In this document: in pieces, positions 33,660-39,468 of the stretch | Numbering within the stretch: the first letter of the stretch is position 1 | How the letters are laid out: each line of letters begins with the position of its first letter | NCBI GenBank assembly: GCA_025454395.1 | Contig: JALOOM010000037.1 | Coordinates: forward strand, 1 to 39,535 | From: Elainella sp. Prado103 | GTDB lineage: Bacteria; Cyanobacteriota; Cyanobacteriia; Elainellales; Elainellaceae | Direction: 5' to 3' | DNA length: 39,535 bases | Translations under genes and position numbers: made by a program | The notes under the pieces: generated by a model | Database searches by the model: none | The model's input: only the letters and a program-made list of their open reading frames with translations | What the model was told of the DNA's origin: nothing

Positions 33660-33727
33660 ATATGACACTGGTAATATGACACTGGTATAGAGCAAGCGCG
33701 GTAGAAGTTTTAGCCGAAGTTTTAGCC
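33660..33727. repeat. Two small tandem duplications between amidase and Trypco1-like genes
   Basis: 14-bp atatgacactggta twice at 33660-33687, and 12-bp gaagttttagcc twice at 33704-33727. The second covers the stop codon of the Trypco1-like gene at 33722. Confidence 0.9.
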
Positions 33728-34246
33728 GATCGGTTGTCCAACAGGGCGGGGATTAGTAGGCTGAGCAGGTTGAGGCGGCCGCTGGGGCATTCCTTGCGGG
33801 ACTCTAGATTGGGAAGCAGCAGGGTGCATCGCCTGTTGAGGGACGGATTGACTATTTTCGCAAGGGCGTTTCGGGAATGCACATTCTACCGTTACCTTAA
33901 TGTTACACTGCATCGTTCCGGCGGCGATATAGGGTACCCCACCGGAGCCACTCACATTCACTCCGAATTCTAAAGAAACTTTTTCAACTTCTGCTAAGGC
34001 AGCATCCTTAAAGGCATTCAGCGTATATTTAGTATAGGTTTTAATGGTATTTTCGATCGCTCGAAAGCTTTGCGTGACTTGAGTTTCTACCACCTGGGAT
34101 GTTTGTTCCCATCCCTTAGAACCGCTTCGTCGGGTCTCTTCACCAGTTTCCACTGTCGCTGTGGCTACGGGCACCAGCGTATTTTCTGTCGCCTCTACAT
34201 AAATAGTAGTATTTTCGTCAATCTGGATAGCTTGCAGCTTGCTCAT
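33722..34246 (-). CDS. CU044_2847/Trypco1-like domain protein with Pro/Gln-rich tail
   Basis: 174 residues from the ATG at 34246, with AAGGG ten bases upstream. The domain (about 1-115) has an N-terminal strand IQIDENTTIYVEA, a central helix FRAIENTIKTYTKYTLNAF, and then VEKVSLEFGVNVSGSGGVPYIAAGT with a final strand NIKVTVEC. The helix plus LEFGV pattern is that of trypsin-co-occurring domain 1, described in counter-invader conflict systems of complex bacteria. The tail (about 130-174) is rich in Pro, Gln and Met. No trypsin, MoxR-ATPase or vWA partner is adjacent. Confidence 0.75.
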   Translation of the reverse strand: MSKLQAIQIDENTTIYVEATENTLVPVATATVETGEETRRSGSKGWEQTSQVVETQVTQSFRAIENTIKTYTKYTLNAFKDAALAEVEKVSLEFGVNVSGSGGVPYIAAGTMQCNIKVTVECAFPKRPCENSQSVPQQAMHPAASQSRVPQGMPQRPPQPAQPTNPRPVGQPIG

Positions 34247-34380
34247 CGTGAAACACCCTTGCTTAATATTCAATCCATGCGCTTTATAGGGACAACAAAT
34301 TTACCAGTATATAAAGGCACTTTTCGAAGATAAGCGAGTCTCTGATGAAGCGAATACGGAGTCTGACCCCCTAGCAGCTT

Positions 34381-35041: not shown

Positions 35042-35842
35042 CTAGAGGACTCCGCCAAATCCACTCCTCGAACCAATCGATCGAACAATCTCACGACCGG
35101 ATTGCTCTAAAATCACAGTTGGTTCCATCCCCATTTCAACCCGCTTGACTAATACTTGACTATTTCCCAACCGTTCTCCAACCGTCACATATCGGCTTGT
35201 CGCCTCCTCAGGCAGCTTCACAATCACGTTCGTCTCGCCTGCAATTTGAATCACGCCACTGATTTCAATCCTCTCTGCTAGAGGTAGTGGATTGACTTTC
35301 GCAGGTGCAGGCACGGGATTCACAGGCACAGGAGCAAGAACAGGTGGAACGGCTACGGAGGGCATTACCGTCGGCAAGGGAGGGGGTTGAACTGGCTCGG
35401 CAGAGAGCACCACAGGAGGTGCCACTGTGACTGGCAGTGCAGATGTGACTGGCTGTGCAGATGTGACTGGCTGTGCAGATGTGACTGGCTGTGCAGATGT
35501 GACTGGCTTAGCTTGCACCCTGGGAACCATACTGAGGGTGGCAAAAGGATCAGATCTGCCAGTTTCTACTTGGGGTATCCGCTCAGAGGAAGTTGTCGGC
35601 GGAATTAAATGCGGCACCGGCACTGGCGCTAGTTGAACGGCACTAGAAACGATCGTCGGCTTTGGGAAAAAATCTTGTGAGGTTAATGGCTGCCCAGGTC
35701 GTTGATTTGCGATTTTTTCAGGTACATCAACTATCGCAGACTGAACTGGCTCAGACTGGGGCGGATGAGTCGAAACTTGATGGCTACAGCCAACGAGAGA
35801 GAGGATGATAGCGCTACCGATCCACCACAGCTTTTGGATCAT
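35042..35842 (-). CDS. Lipoprotein with Pro/Val/Ser repeats and PilP-like C-terminus
   Basis: 266 residues from the ATG at 35842, preferred because AGGAG lies six bases upstream and a lipoprotein signal with the lipobox LVGC (Cys19) follows at once; the frame is open further up to 35941. A long Pro/Val/Ser/Ala-rich region (about 25-195) contains four PVTSAQ-type repeats. SDPFA (about 100) and the C-terminal beta domain (about 195-260: IEISGVIQIAGETNVIVKL, YVTVGERLG, VKRVEMG) resemble PilP-like pilus or secretin-associated lipoproteins; that is a structural guess. It lies 99 bases after the DUF4912 giant gene. Confidence 0.8.
   Translation of the reverse strand: MIQKLWWIGSAIILSLVGCSHQVSTHPPQSEPVQSAIVDVPEKIANQRPGQPLTSQDFFPKPTIVSSAVQLAPVPVPHLIPPTTSSERIPQVETGRSDPFATLSMVPRVQAKPVTSAQPVTSAQPVTSAQPVTSALPVTVAPPVVLSAEPVQPPPLPTVMPSVAVPPVLAPVPVNPVPAPAKVNPLPLAERIEISGVIQIAGETNVIVKLPEEATSRYVTVGERLGNSQVLVKRVEMGMEPTVILEQSGREIVRSIGSRSGFGGVL
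35427..35498 (-). repeat. 18-bp coding tandem repeat, 4 units (PVTSAQ)
   Basis: gtgactggcagtgcagat followed by three copies of gtgactggctgtgcagat, then a partial fifth. In the lipoprotein frame it reads PVTSAQ/PVTSAL. Confidence 0.95.
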
Positions 35843-35941: not shown

Positions 35942-38900
35942 TTAAAATAACTCATCCCTCGCTTCATCTTTCGGGTTGGTATGACGGCTGGGGGTTTCTC
36001 GATTGAATCGCAGATGTACCGATCGGGATTGCTCTCCATCTTCTGCAATTGCCAAGATGGGGAAGTCAAGCATTCCATCTTGGAAGGACAGGTGTAATCG
36101 AAAGGTTCCATCCGGATTGAGTTGAACTGGGTATCCAGCGATCGTCACCTTGGCTCCGGGTTCAGTGGCACCATAGACAATCAGTTCGGCATCAGCAAGC
36201 AACCAAAACTGGCGCGATCGAAGTGGTGGCATAGAAGCAGCCAACCCAATGCCAGACATAGAATACATGCCGACACCAGACATTCCTAACATTCCAACCC
36301 CGGACATTGAGTACATTCCGACACCGGACATCATCCCCATCCCAGAGCCCAAGCCGATTCCTGAGAAGGTGGGTACTGCTGGGACGGTCATACCCACTCC
36401 TGACATCGAGTACAGTCCTACACCCGACATTCCTGAGATACCCACTCCTGACATCGAGTACAACCCCACACCCGACATTCCTGAAATACCCACTCCTGAC
36501 ATCATGCCAATTCCTGACATTATGCCCACACCAGACTCAGTACGAGTGACCAGTCCAGCTCCCGATCCCAGTCCAAAAGAACTGAGGCTTGCGGACGGAA
36601 TTTGATGTTGCGACCCAAATAAAGATCCTGCCAGATGAGCCAATTGAGTTGAGTTAGACAGATCCAATATTCGCTCAGCCAGCCTATCTGCTGACTGCTG
36701 ACCCAGTGGTGTCAGTTCCACTAAGCTGTCATGAGTCAACTCTTTGTCCCAGCTAACGGTCAGAAATTGCGCTTCAGACCAATCAGAGGGTTGAAGCGGT
36801 GGTGTGCAGATGGCATTGGAACGAGCTAGCATTAACCAGTGTCCGTCACTCGTCACATAGCCAATTTCGACGATATAGTCCCGATCGCTCACTGGAATTG
36901 GGAGATACCAGTCGCGGGCGATTTCGTCGCATTCATACTGCTGCAAGCTGTGGGGGTTCTGCTCTTTCAGATCGATCGCCGTGACATCATAAAAGCGCAA
37001 CGCAAGTCGCTGTCCCCCATGTTGACGTAGTCTCTGTTTATCCGCTTCGGGCGTATTCCAATATGTATAGGCCCAGTATGGATCTCTGGCAAGCAGTGTG
37101 ATCCAGCTTCCATCGTAGCCACTCGGCAGTTCAGCCAGTCCTTCATCAATGGCTGCTAGAGCAAGATCTTCATCGGTAGAACCTAGATCAAAACGGCTTG
37201 CTTCCACCGCTGCTTGGATCGCTTCTCCAACAGGTGGGTTTTGTAAAGCCTCTGTGAGAGCCCCTGTACTAGCAATGAGTGACGTACCACCCATCAACAG
37301 AGCCCTGCTATCACTATCGCCACCTGAAACATCCGACGACAGGAGATTCGATGCAACATCTGGACTATTGCTAGGTTGTCGCTCAGGAGCTTCTAGGTCA
37401 GGCGTAGACAGCTCAGAATGCAGTTCGGCGGTGGATGCTGCGGGTGAAACTTGCAATGCAGAATCACTTGCTTCAGGCAATTGATCTGATAAAGGAGCAC
37501 TATCACCTGGACTGTCAACTGAAGCTGATCGAGCTGGCTGATTCCTGTCAAGCGGCTCCGGTAAGCCAGCCACATATACTGGAGTTGATCGAGCCAATAA
37601 TAGCCATTGCTGATTTGCAGTCAGATAGCCCAGTTCAGCTACATATTCACGGTTGGCGATCGGCAATGCGACAAATGCATCCCGATCAGGTTCAGCACAG
37701 GGATATTGTTGGCTATAGGGAGGCTGGTCGGTAGATAGATCAATGTCCGTCGTGTCTAGAATTCTCAGGGTGAGCTGTTCACCCCCTTGCTGTTTCAATC
37801 TTGCCCTTTCAGCTTCCGGCACTTCCCAGTAAGCATAGCCTTGCGTAGAAGTTCTCGGGGTTAGAATAATCTGACTCCTATGTCCAGCTTCAGAGGTGGC
37901 GAGTCTTGCTCCAATTCCGCCTGCCAATGCCGCAGCACCCACCCCCACTGACATAGCACGACCTGCATCGATCGCAGAGGTTGGGGTCACAGAAGCTGAA
38001 GGTTCAACTGAAGGTTCAACAGTTGAGCGATCGGCACTGATCGCTGATTCTGGTAATGGCTCTTCTGGTAATGGCTCCTCTGGTAATGGCTCTATTGAAA
38101 CCGATGCAGTCTGATCCATCGAATTTGCAGAACGTTCCAGTGAGGTGGATTGATCACCGGTAATCACCGTTCCTGATCGTTCCGCCAAGCTAGATGTCGC
38201 AGTAGCCGTAGCAACAGATGAGTCACTGCCAGATAAAGGAATCGTAGATTCTCTACGTCGATTTAATCCCCATAAAAGCAAACCACCCACACCCGCCAGA
38301 GGTAAGAGCAACCAGGGGAGCCAACCCACATCTTGTCTGCTAGGTTGCGCAGCGGGGGTGATTGAGGTAGCTGGAGTTGGAGAAAGTGTTGACCCTTCGG
38401 GAGCAATCGGGGTAGCCAGCGTCTCAGAAATTGGGCTAGGAGAAACAGGCGTAGGAGAAACAGGTTGAACAGCCGTAGCTTCTGCCTGTCTTGCTTCAGC
38501 AATGGCCTGTTGCCCGATCGGGGAAGCTATCAATCCTAAGAACGATCGAACTGCTGGGTTCGTTTCCCGGTAAACATAGTTGCGCGGCTGTGAGTAAGGA
38601 TAACGGGGATCATCGGGCAATGTATCGTGCATCGGCAGAATGCGGATATCACTGCGATTCAGAACTTGACTAACAATGCCATAACTAATTCCATCTTGTC
38701 CTAGCTGCGAAACGATAGCCGCTGTATCATCGCTCGGCAACTGCACTGCACTTGCACCGACCTGAAAAGGAGCCGATTGGAATACACTGTAGCGACTGAG
38801 CGACTGACGGGTATCACTGGTTTCTGGTCGATCAATAAACCGAATGGGGGCTGCTGCCCCACCTAATTCAGCCCAGTTAACAATTTCTCCCCGAAAAATT

Positions 38901-39370
38901 CCGGCAAACTGTTCAAATGTTAGATTTTCCTGAAACGGATTGTCAGCACCCACGAAAATAGCAATCTTTTCTCGACTCACTGGGGCTTCAACTAAACCTT
39001 GCGCTCGTTCAGCTTCCGTTAATGGACGACCAATCGCAGCCAGATCGATCGAACCAGCCAAAACAGCTTGGATGGCTACATCTGTGCCCCGAGTCGCCAG
39101 CTCAACTATTGAGCCTTCATACTGCTGTTCAAATCGTTGTTTGAGGGACTGATTAATCCCTACCATGCTTTCAGAACCATCTACTCGAACAATTGTTCCA
39201 GGAGAAACAGATGGTATTAATGGGAATCCGTCTTGCGTAGCCGGTTGAGCTTTAGCGGGATAAACCTGAAGAAATAGTGGTCTCGAGACAGTCGAGAGCA
39301 GTACTGCTAACAAAAGAACAAGAATTGAAGGCTTTTTTTCGCGTCGCATCATGTCAACCGTAAATCCCAT
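35942..39370 (-). CDS. Giant PstS-like substrate-binding protein with two DUF4912 domains and MSGVG repeats
   Basis: 1142 residues from the ATG at 39370; a second ATG at 39352 or a TTG at 39397 are alternatives. A signal or anchor (SILVLLLAVLLSTVS) precedes a phosphate-binding-type periplasmic domain (about 43-290: RVDGSESMVGINQSLKQRFE, LATRGTDVAIQAVLAG, WAELGG). A Pro/Thr-rich linker and a membrane helix follow (about 346-368, WLPWLLLPLAGVGGLLLWG). Two DUF4912-type domains lie at about 500-600 (YAYWEVPEAE) and 753-857 (YWAYTYWNTPEADK). Ten MSG(V/I)G repeats fill about 943-1041, and a beta domain ends the protein. If the single central helix spans the membrane, the DUF4912 part would be cytoplasmic. 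Function unknown. Confidence 0.88.
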   Translation of the reverse strand: MGFTVDMMRREKKPSILVLLLAVLLSTVSRPLFLQVYPAKAQPATQDGFPLIPSVSPGTIVRVDGSESMVGINQSLKQRFEQQYEGSIVELATRGTDVAIQAVLAGSIDLAAIGRPLTEAERAQGLVEAPVSREKIAIFVGADNPFQENLTFEQFAGIFRGEIVNWAELGGAAAPIRFIDRPETSDTRQSLSRYSVFQSAPFQVGASAVQLPSDDTAAIVSQLGQDGISYGIVSQVLNRSDIRILPMHDTLPDDPRYPYSQPRNYVYRETNPAVRSFLGLIASPIGQQAIAEARQAEATAVQPVSPTPVSPSPISETLATPIAPEGSTLSPTPATSITPAAQPSRQDVGWLPWLLLPLAGVGGLLLWGLNRRRESTIPLSGSDSSVATATATSSLAERSGTVITGDQSTSLERSANSMDQTASVSIEPLPEEPLPEEPLPESAISADRSTVEPSVEPSASVTPTSAIDAGRAMSVGVGAAALAGGIGARLATSEAGHRSQIILTPRTSTQGYAYWEVPEAERARLKQQGGEQLTLRILDTTDIDLSTDQPPYSQQYPCAEPDRDAFVALPIANREYVAELGYLTANQQWLLLARSTPVYVAGLPEPLDRNQPARSASVDSPGDSAPLSDQLPEASDSALQVSPAASTAELHSELSTPDLEAPERQPSNSPDVASNLLSSDVSGGDSDSRALLMGGTSLIASTGALTEALQNPPVGEAIQAAVEASRFDLGSTDEDLALAAIDEGLAELPSGYDGSWITLLARDPYWAYTYWNTPEADKQRLRQHGGQRLALRFYDVTAIDLKEQNPHSLQQYECDEIARDWYLPIPVSDRDYIVEIGYVTSDGHWLMLARSNAICTPPLQPSDWSEAQFLTVSWDKELTHDSLVELTPLGQQSADRLAERILDLSNSTQLAHLAGSLFGSQHQIPSASLSSFGLGSGAGLVTRTESGVGIMSGIGMMSGVGISGMSGVGLYSMSGVGISGMSGVGLYSMSGVGMTVPAVPTFSGIGLGSGMGMMSGVGMYSMSGVGMLGMSGVGMYSMSGIGLAASMPPLRSRQFWLLADAELIVYGATEPGAKVTIAGYPVQLNPDGTFRLHLSFQDGMLDFPILAIAEDGEQSRSVHLRFNRETPSRHTNPKDEARDELF
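36246..36540 (-). repeat. MSGVG-repeat coding region in the DUF4912 protein
   Basis: Ten MSG(V/I)G motifs alternate with short spacers (ISG, LYS, MYS, MLG). The DNA units are diverged, so the repeat is older than the perfect arrays elsewhere in the window. Confidence 0.9.
38049..38093 (-). repeat. 15-bp coding tandem repeat, 3 units (EPLPE)
   Basis: tctggtaatggctct and two near copies encode EPLPE in the linker of the DUF4912 protein. A 12-bp duplication (ctgaaggttcaa twice) lies just before, at 37996-38019. Confidence 0.9.
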
Positions 39371-39468
39371 TAACCCAGGCAAGGTTAATTTTTGCAAAAG
39401 ACTAGCAAATTATATAGCCCCTCTCTAGATAGACTTTAATTCATCACAAATTTTTATTTCAGAATCAA

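Follow-up and report, generated by a model that had tools for sequence, protein, structure and literature searches.

The subject of this report is a gene on the reverse strand of a 39,535-nucleotide contig from the cyanobacterium Elainella sp. Prado103 (GenBank assembly GCA_025454395.1, contig JALOOM010000037.1), the whole of which is referred to here as the window. The encoded protein joins in one chain a PstS-like substrate-binding protein (SBP) domain, a transmembrane (TM) helix, two DUF4912 domains, an MSGVG repeat tract, and a terminal β-domain designated Cb. At slightly less than even confidence, we favor the reading that it is a single-pass membrane receptor or anchor presenting cytosolic interaction modules. 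The PstS-like domain would reside in the periplasm (or the thylakoid lumen), where it would close on a small, probably anionic ligand in a changed pocket. The helix would span the membrane, beyond which the FN3-like DUF4912 domains, the MSGVG tract, and Cb would form a cytosolic interaction platform. A natural guess is that this platform would bind the partners of a second protein, of the Rho_N-DUF4912 type, or that protein itself, and hold them at the membrane, because its last part resembles the C-terminal half of the Rho_N-DUF4912 protein. The window protein would not be part of a transporter. Its layout resembles that of the sensor kinases of the BvgS kind, in which a periplasmic binding protein (PBP) domain is joined via a helix to a cytosolic part. 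Whereas those proteins contain a kinase, the Pfam scan of the window protein revealed neither a kinase nor any other known output domain.

Architecture and membrane orientation

The frame encodes 1151 residues if started at the TTG codon at 39397 or 1136 residues (the form designated P0001) if started at the ATG at 39352. In-frame ATG codons occur at 39370, 39352, and 39349. The features of the gene, all on the reverse strand, are as follows.

35942..39397, reverse: complete SBP-TM-DUF4912x2-MSGVG-beta gene (preferred start ATG at 39352; possible alternative start TTG at 39397)
39248..39352, reverse: predicted signal peptide, residues 1-35, ending in AKA (hydrophobic segment 10-28 and reading of the sequence)
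38489..39199, reverse: PstS-like PBP domain, residues 52-288 (PBP_like_2; PDB entry 9l8j, Sll0540, E 1e-52)
38807..38833, reverse: binding-loop signature, IDRPETSDTR region (residues 174-182, DRPETSDTR; alignment of 118 SBP domains)
38261..38329, reverse: membrane helix, residues 342-364, followed by RRR (hydropathy and charge)
37565..37876, reverse: first DUF4912, residues 493-596 (Pfam; placed by the tree with the internal DUF4912 domains of SBP fusions)
36779..37108, reverse: second DUF4912, residues 749-858 (Pfam; placed by the tree with the Rho_N protein type; AlphaFold2 predicted local distance difference test score, pLDDT, 86.5)
36233..36535, reverse: MSGVG tract, residues 940-1040, predicted disordered (composition, Tandem Repeats Finder (TRF), and model)
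35990..36214, reverse: C-terminal β-domain Cb, residues 1047-1121 (sequence comparison and model)

From the N- to the C-terminus, the chain thus runs from the signal peptide through the PstS-like domain, a linker, the helix, the first DUF4912, a Ser/Pro/Glu-rich linker, and the second DUF4912 to a helical stretch, the MSGVG tract, and Cb. In the Pfam scan, DUF4912 (PF16258) matched in two stretches with an E-value of 2.2e-65 (218.7 bits versus a cut-off of 29.4) and PBP_like_2 with an E-value of 7.1e-28 (98.5 bits versus a cut-off of 27), and Cb gave no match at E<=1. An earlier note on this DNA, made from the sequence alone, had described such a one-chain fusion, and Pfam, hydropathy, and the structural model confirm it, including the order of the domains.

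Of 95 distinct fused proteins, 92 have a helix after the SBP domain. Within the 15 residues flanking it, lysines and arginines number on average 0.87 before and 2.90 after the helix; they are in excess after it in 77 of the 92 proteins, equal in nine, and fewer in six. This distribution supports an N-out/C-in orientation. The proposal of the earlier note that the helix spans the membrane, with the binding domain outside and the remainder inside, is supported by this bias and by the cytosolic-type enzyme domains found at the same place in relatives. Every DUF4912 domain is likely, on the basis of sequence, to lie inside.

The binding pocket and the exchangeable C-terminal parts

A search of the PDB matched residues 49-287 of the window protein to the structure of Sll0540 from Synechocystis (9l8j, E 1e-52). 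Two publications annotate Sll0540 as a PstS homologue (PMC3610870, PMC3564720), and a literature search on 9L8J found no paper. The window protein possesses the type-2 PBP superfamily domain of the PstS components of Pst ABC transporters (PBP_like_2 and PstS-type matches in the PDB), but it differs from them. Its score against the full-length PstS family model TIGR02136 is 73.3 bits, under the cut-off of 206.6, and its binding loop reads SDT rather than SGT. The SGT loop of PstS-type proteins presumably binds phosphate.

For the pocket analysis, 118 SBP domains were aligned: 68 from distinct SBP-DUF4912 proteins, five from SBP-phosphorylase proteins, eight from other fusions, 10 from frames cut by the fetched stretch, and 27 from frames without a long tail. 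The residue after the loop serine is aspartate in 60, glutamate in five, glycine in two, and leucine in one of the SBP-DUF4912 domains; it is aspartate in four and glutamate in one of the SBP-phosphorylase domains, aspartate in seven and glutamate in one of the other fusions, and aspartate in nine and glutamate in one of the cut frames. Among the tail-less frames, it is glycine in 22, aspartate in two, serine in two, and asparagine in one; the two aspartate cases (L035 and L131) appear to be fusions that have been broken or split. An aspartate precedes the arginine in all 91 fused or cut frames, the corresponding residue being asparagine in 23 of the 27 unfused ones, and the arginines of the GR motif and of SDTR are each present in 91 of 91. 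Because the S[D/E]TR loop and the aspartate before the arginine are kept, the fused class has its own conserved pocket. The Sll0540-type proteins share the PBP domain with the window protein but are unfused and, in most, have the loop SGT[HYQ] and asparagine before the arginine.

Given the S[D/E]TR loop of the fused domains versus SGT in the unfused ones, phosphate is not a safe assignment for the ligand. Pho-box-like sites, scanned for by consensus in a set that excludes the window gene, lie upstream of one of 68 SBP-DUF4912 genes and none of nine SBP-phosphorylase genes, versus 28 of 832 other open reading frames (ORFs). With no enrichment in the fused class, membership in the Pho regulon was rejected. 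Of the ligands suggested in the earlier note, phosphate or another oxyanion, phosphate is weakened by the loop, the TIGR02136 score, and the Pho-box scan. As the note had stated, no pst genes were seen in the window (17 ORFs scanned with Pfam, the others read by eye), a negative that reaches no further than the ends of this contig, the whole of which the window makes up; matches to PstC-family permeases lie on other contigs (C154, C134, and others), two of 11 being over the cut-off. Sensing rather than import is plausible, but phosphate as what is sensed stays weak.

The Elainella genome carries four DUF4912 genes. Three encode the SBP domain and helix (on the window contig, C155, and on C116 and C19), and the fourth, on C59, encodes Rho_N-DUF4912-MSGVG-Cb without either. 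Within the family of the window genome, the SBP domain and DUF4912 occur in one frame in 26 of 35 sampled genomes, 21 of which have Cb as well; in the remainder, the gene was truncated or split, or was absent from the loci that were fetched. In a sample of the phylum, the SBP domain was matched at E<=1e-40 in 71 of 292 genomes, and the matches fall into two size classes, long frames and frames of ~300-340 residues. Forty long-frame loci, from which two further cases (G102 and G204) were excluded, contained DUF4912 in 36, together with Cb in 27; four lacked DUF4912. DUF4912 itself was found in 103 of 194 phylum genomes; among 20 listed genomes without it, one belongs to the same class, and 71 more misses lie outside that listing.

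The same SBP-TM chassis carries other moieties as well. By Pfam these are WD40 plus TPR (L172:6591-10199), a coiled coil plus HHH_5 (L178:3731-8812), TPR (L067:268-2898), and acetyl-CoA synthetase (L065:9299-13090); in L140, L174, and one frame of L065, the C-terminal part matches nothing in Pfam. As judged from these sequences, the SBP-TM fusions are a family, widespread among cyanobacteria, with exchangeable, predicted cytosolic parts. No match was obtained in viral contigs searched with P0001 or in plasmids searched with DUF4912 by tblastn, and the PHROGs search gave weak Rho_N-like matches at most. In the literature search, DUF4912 turned up solely in a cotton expression table.

In ten genomes of the family's 36, a frame longer than 1200 residues matches the phosphorylase family PF00343, and all ten, when read, contain the SBP domain.

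SBP-TM-phosphorylase-like genes: L074:1236-6089, L076:9262-13737, L085:7433-12088, L086:3994-8445, L071:3136-7521, L279, L280, L281, L282, L283

These proteins share the SBP-TM chassis of the window protein but have a PF00343 domain in place of DUF4912. The lysine of the SGTxNMK motif, which in phosphorylases we take to bind pyridoxal phosphate (PLP), is replaced in all ten by isoleucine (eight), alanine (one), or methionine (one), and two cut frames agree. Three ordinary phosphorylases that were compared keep the lysine and carry a stretch that is missing from the ten. Loss of the PLP lysine is consistent with at least one of the moieties serving in binding and not in catalysis. Literature on phosphorylase pseudoenzymes contained nothing on these fusions by title and abstract. 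A gene for a 131-residue protein family, D131, which matched no family in Pfam, NCBIfam, or PHROGs, adjoins eight of the ten SBP-phosphorylase genes; in four of the ten, SBP-phosphorylase, D131, and SBP-DUF4912-D131 genes stand in a row on one strand. In the Elainella genome, D131 occurs beside and inside the C116 gene, and a fused phosphorylase was not found. At L280:1600-15572 lie genes for a 2-hydroxyacid dehydrogenase, an SBP-phosphorylase-like protein, D131, SBP-D131, a phosphoglucose isomerase, and an intact phosphorylase.

A module common with the Rho_N-DUF4912 protein

The Rho_N-DUF4912 type is widespread, and its representative in the same genome (C59; L001:1225-3213) has 662 residues and matches Rho_N (PF07498) with an E-value of 1e-12. 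DUF4912, the MSGVG tract, and Cb follow in the same order as in the window protein, but Rho_N stands where the latter has its signal peptide, SBP domain, and helix; the Pfam scan of the window protein gave no Rho_N match at E<=1. The arrangement Rho_N-DUF4912-Cb was present in 21 of 21 loci, these having been selected as that type. PMC13289151 reports that Rho is absent from cyanobacteria and that seven low-confidence RHON1-like matches were found.

A tree of 107 DUF4912 domains, built on only 104 columns, places the second DUF4912 of the window protein in a set of 48 rows (99/95) made up of the last domains before Cb and of Rho_N proteins, and the first in another, made up of 23 internal domains (99/89). 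A third set (34 rows, 100/99) takes in the domain before Cb of the family holding Nodularia, which lacks the tract. Because its second DUF4912, tract, and Cb resemble the C-terminal half of the Rho_N-DUF4912 protein, the window gene looks chimeric, with an SBP-TM-DUF4912 part combined with a module common to both proteins.

The AlphaFold2 model of the second DUF4912 shows seven strands and one helix, and it resembles an FN3-like sandwich. Foldseek gave a best E-value of 5.2e-4 against FN3 domains, with seven rows at E<=0.001 and 6-18% identity in the rows shown; by VIA, Z is 9.4, with an rmsd (root-mean-square deviation) of 3.4 for 94 aligned. Cb is modeled as a confident β-domain (blocks 191-260, mean pLDDT 87-96), for which Foldseek gave weak matches (best E 6.5e-3).

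The tract comprises 101 residues, of which 30 are glycine, 20 serine, and 17 methionine, with 24- and 48-base periods according to TRF. The motif SG[VIMAL]G occurs 14 times in the window protein, as compared to a mean of 0.34 and a maximum of four in 2000 whole-protein shuffles. The modeled block, with a pLDDT of 34-48, is disordered or unresolved. The earlier note had called the repeat unusual in composition; it is Gly/Ser/Met-rich and is not private to this gene, being common to the Rho_N-DUF4912 protein. We take the tract to resemble the condensate-forming low-complexity domains of eukaryotes; literature on RNA-binding low-complexity proteins in cyanobacteria contained nothing on these proteins by title and abstract. 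In the C59 protein, the Gly/Ser/Met/Tyr tract has 37 copies, and as many as 57 are present in L231 (Okeania). An antisense frame of 118 residues with TPDIEY-type repeats (window 36249-36605, forward strand) spans the tract and is most likely a by-product of the repeat.

Where both genes could be measured, those genomes with one of the two (eight and four) being dropped, the tract is either large or small in the membrane protein and the Rho_N protein alike in 26 of 26 genomes (14 and 12). The Spearman coefficient between the two sizes is 0.84 (n=26), and for contrasts r is 0.73 (p 2.6e-5), although no more than two inferred changes per trait underlie these strong statistics. For that reason, joint expansion in both proteins is suggestive, not proof. 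In the low group alone, rho is 0.72 (p 0.008, n=12). Gene conversion was rejected as a cause: the genome's own Rho_N copy is the best match for Cb in four of 26 cases and for DUF4912 in two of 26, and the longest shared tract DNA has a median of 16 bases within a genome versus 14 between genomes. General local repeat content was likewise rejected, since the partial Spearman coefficient is still 0.84 after control. It is quite possible, if short of probable, that the tract has no function and expanded neutrally by slippage. Copy number varies from two to 57 among complete relatives, in the family with Nodularia Cb directly follows DUF4912, and within the expanded genomes there is no size correlation (rho 0.15, p 0.60, n=14); the coincidence of the expansion in both proteins across all 26 genomes, at the same two inferred changes, argues against neutrality.

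Rival readings and neighboring genes

Several observations weigh against the receptor or anchor reading favored here. Three of the 95 fused proteins have no clear helix. On which side of the membrane the DUF4912 domains lie is uncertain, since one or more later TM-like segments occur in 42 of the 92 proteins (none in 50), with a weaker such segment at residues 466-484 of the window protein (Kyte-Doolittle hydropathy (KD) 1.36). Matches to DUF4912 were also found in Bacillus subtilis and Thermotoga maritima, and the likeness to FN3 is one of fold, not function.

The protein could be a structural anchor only, its SBP domain having lost ligand binding and merely tethering scaffolds in the cytosol to the membrane or an envelope partner. 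Such a role would agree with the wide choice of C-terminal moieties and the changed loop, but the pocket residues are near-invariant in the fused forms, which suggests that there is a ligand, and we consider it rather unlikely. Were that ligand phosphate, the protein might be a sensor through which external phosphate tunes glycogen phosphorolysis by way of tethered glucan-related modules. The sister proteins with the phosphorylase-like domain, the four same-strand rows with D131 and SBP-DUF4912-D131, and the isomerase, dehydrogenase, and intact glycogen phosphorylase added at L280 all point in this direction. The fused domains lack the PLP lysine in ten of ten cases, however, the pocket is unlike that of Sll0540 or PstS, the Pho-box scan was negative, and the Elainella genome is without a fused phosphorylase, so that this sensor, too, is unlikely. 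A transport-associated binding protein with a decorative tail is disfavored and very improbable: the PstS-like fold and signal peptide would suit it, but the helix and large cytosolic part are kept across many genomes, no permease was seen in the window, those found lie on other contigs, and the loop is unlike the unfused type. Improbable as well, though bolder in what it proposes, is a ligand-gated membrane dock for the Rho_N-DUF4912 protein that operates through like-with-like contact of tract and Cb; ligand binding by the periplasmic domain would then draw the nucleic-acid-binding Rho_N protein to the membrane.

Downstream of the fusion gene lies the following.

35042..35842, reverse: lipoprotein-like gene, lipobox LVGC (by eye), AQPVTS repeat

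An 18-base unit is repeated 4.6 times in this ORF at 35426-35508. A second, small neighbor has a CxxC..CxxC pattern and hydrophobic stretches by eye, and it matches DUF2396 in Pfam at 19.4 bits, under the cut-off of 21. The earlier note had proposed the lipoprotein and this zinc-ribbon membrane protein as partners, an idea that a check for conserved pairing did not support in general: the lipoprotein is found no more than three genes away from the SBP-DUF4912 gene in three of 64 loci (window, L039, and L040), and the CxxC protein recurs in the same three. At best, then, the idea applies to a few close relatives. A weaker relative of the lipoprotein is present at L074 (E 8e-17). A gene for trypsin-co-occurring domain 1 (Trypco1, E 1.6e-19) lies at 33722-34273 beside an amidase; it occurs within three genes in three of 64 loci (window, L040, and L041) and slightly further off at L039. 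The commonest neighbors of the 64 genes, both named by eye, are a 159-residue membrane protein and a MerR-like regulator, at 10 loci each; the latter (L143-L170) is directly upstream on the same strand in eight and two or three genes off in two. A separate scan of DUF4912 neighborhoods took 80 of 434 confirmed loci, all cyanobacterial.

For DUF4912, the present analysis offers a fold and a context; sister genes carry a phosphorylase-like domain minus its cofactor lysine. The dock, if true, would constitute a one-protein route by which a signal from outside reaches the handling of RNA or DNA in cyanobacteria. If the favored receptor or anchor reading is true, a PstS-like domain plugged in at the membrane as sensor or anchor for a variety of cytosolic moieties would represent a new cyanobacterial receptor layout.

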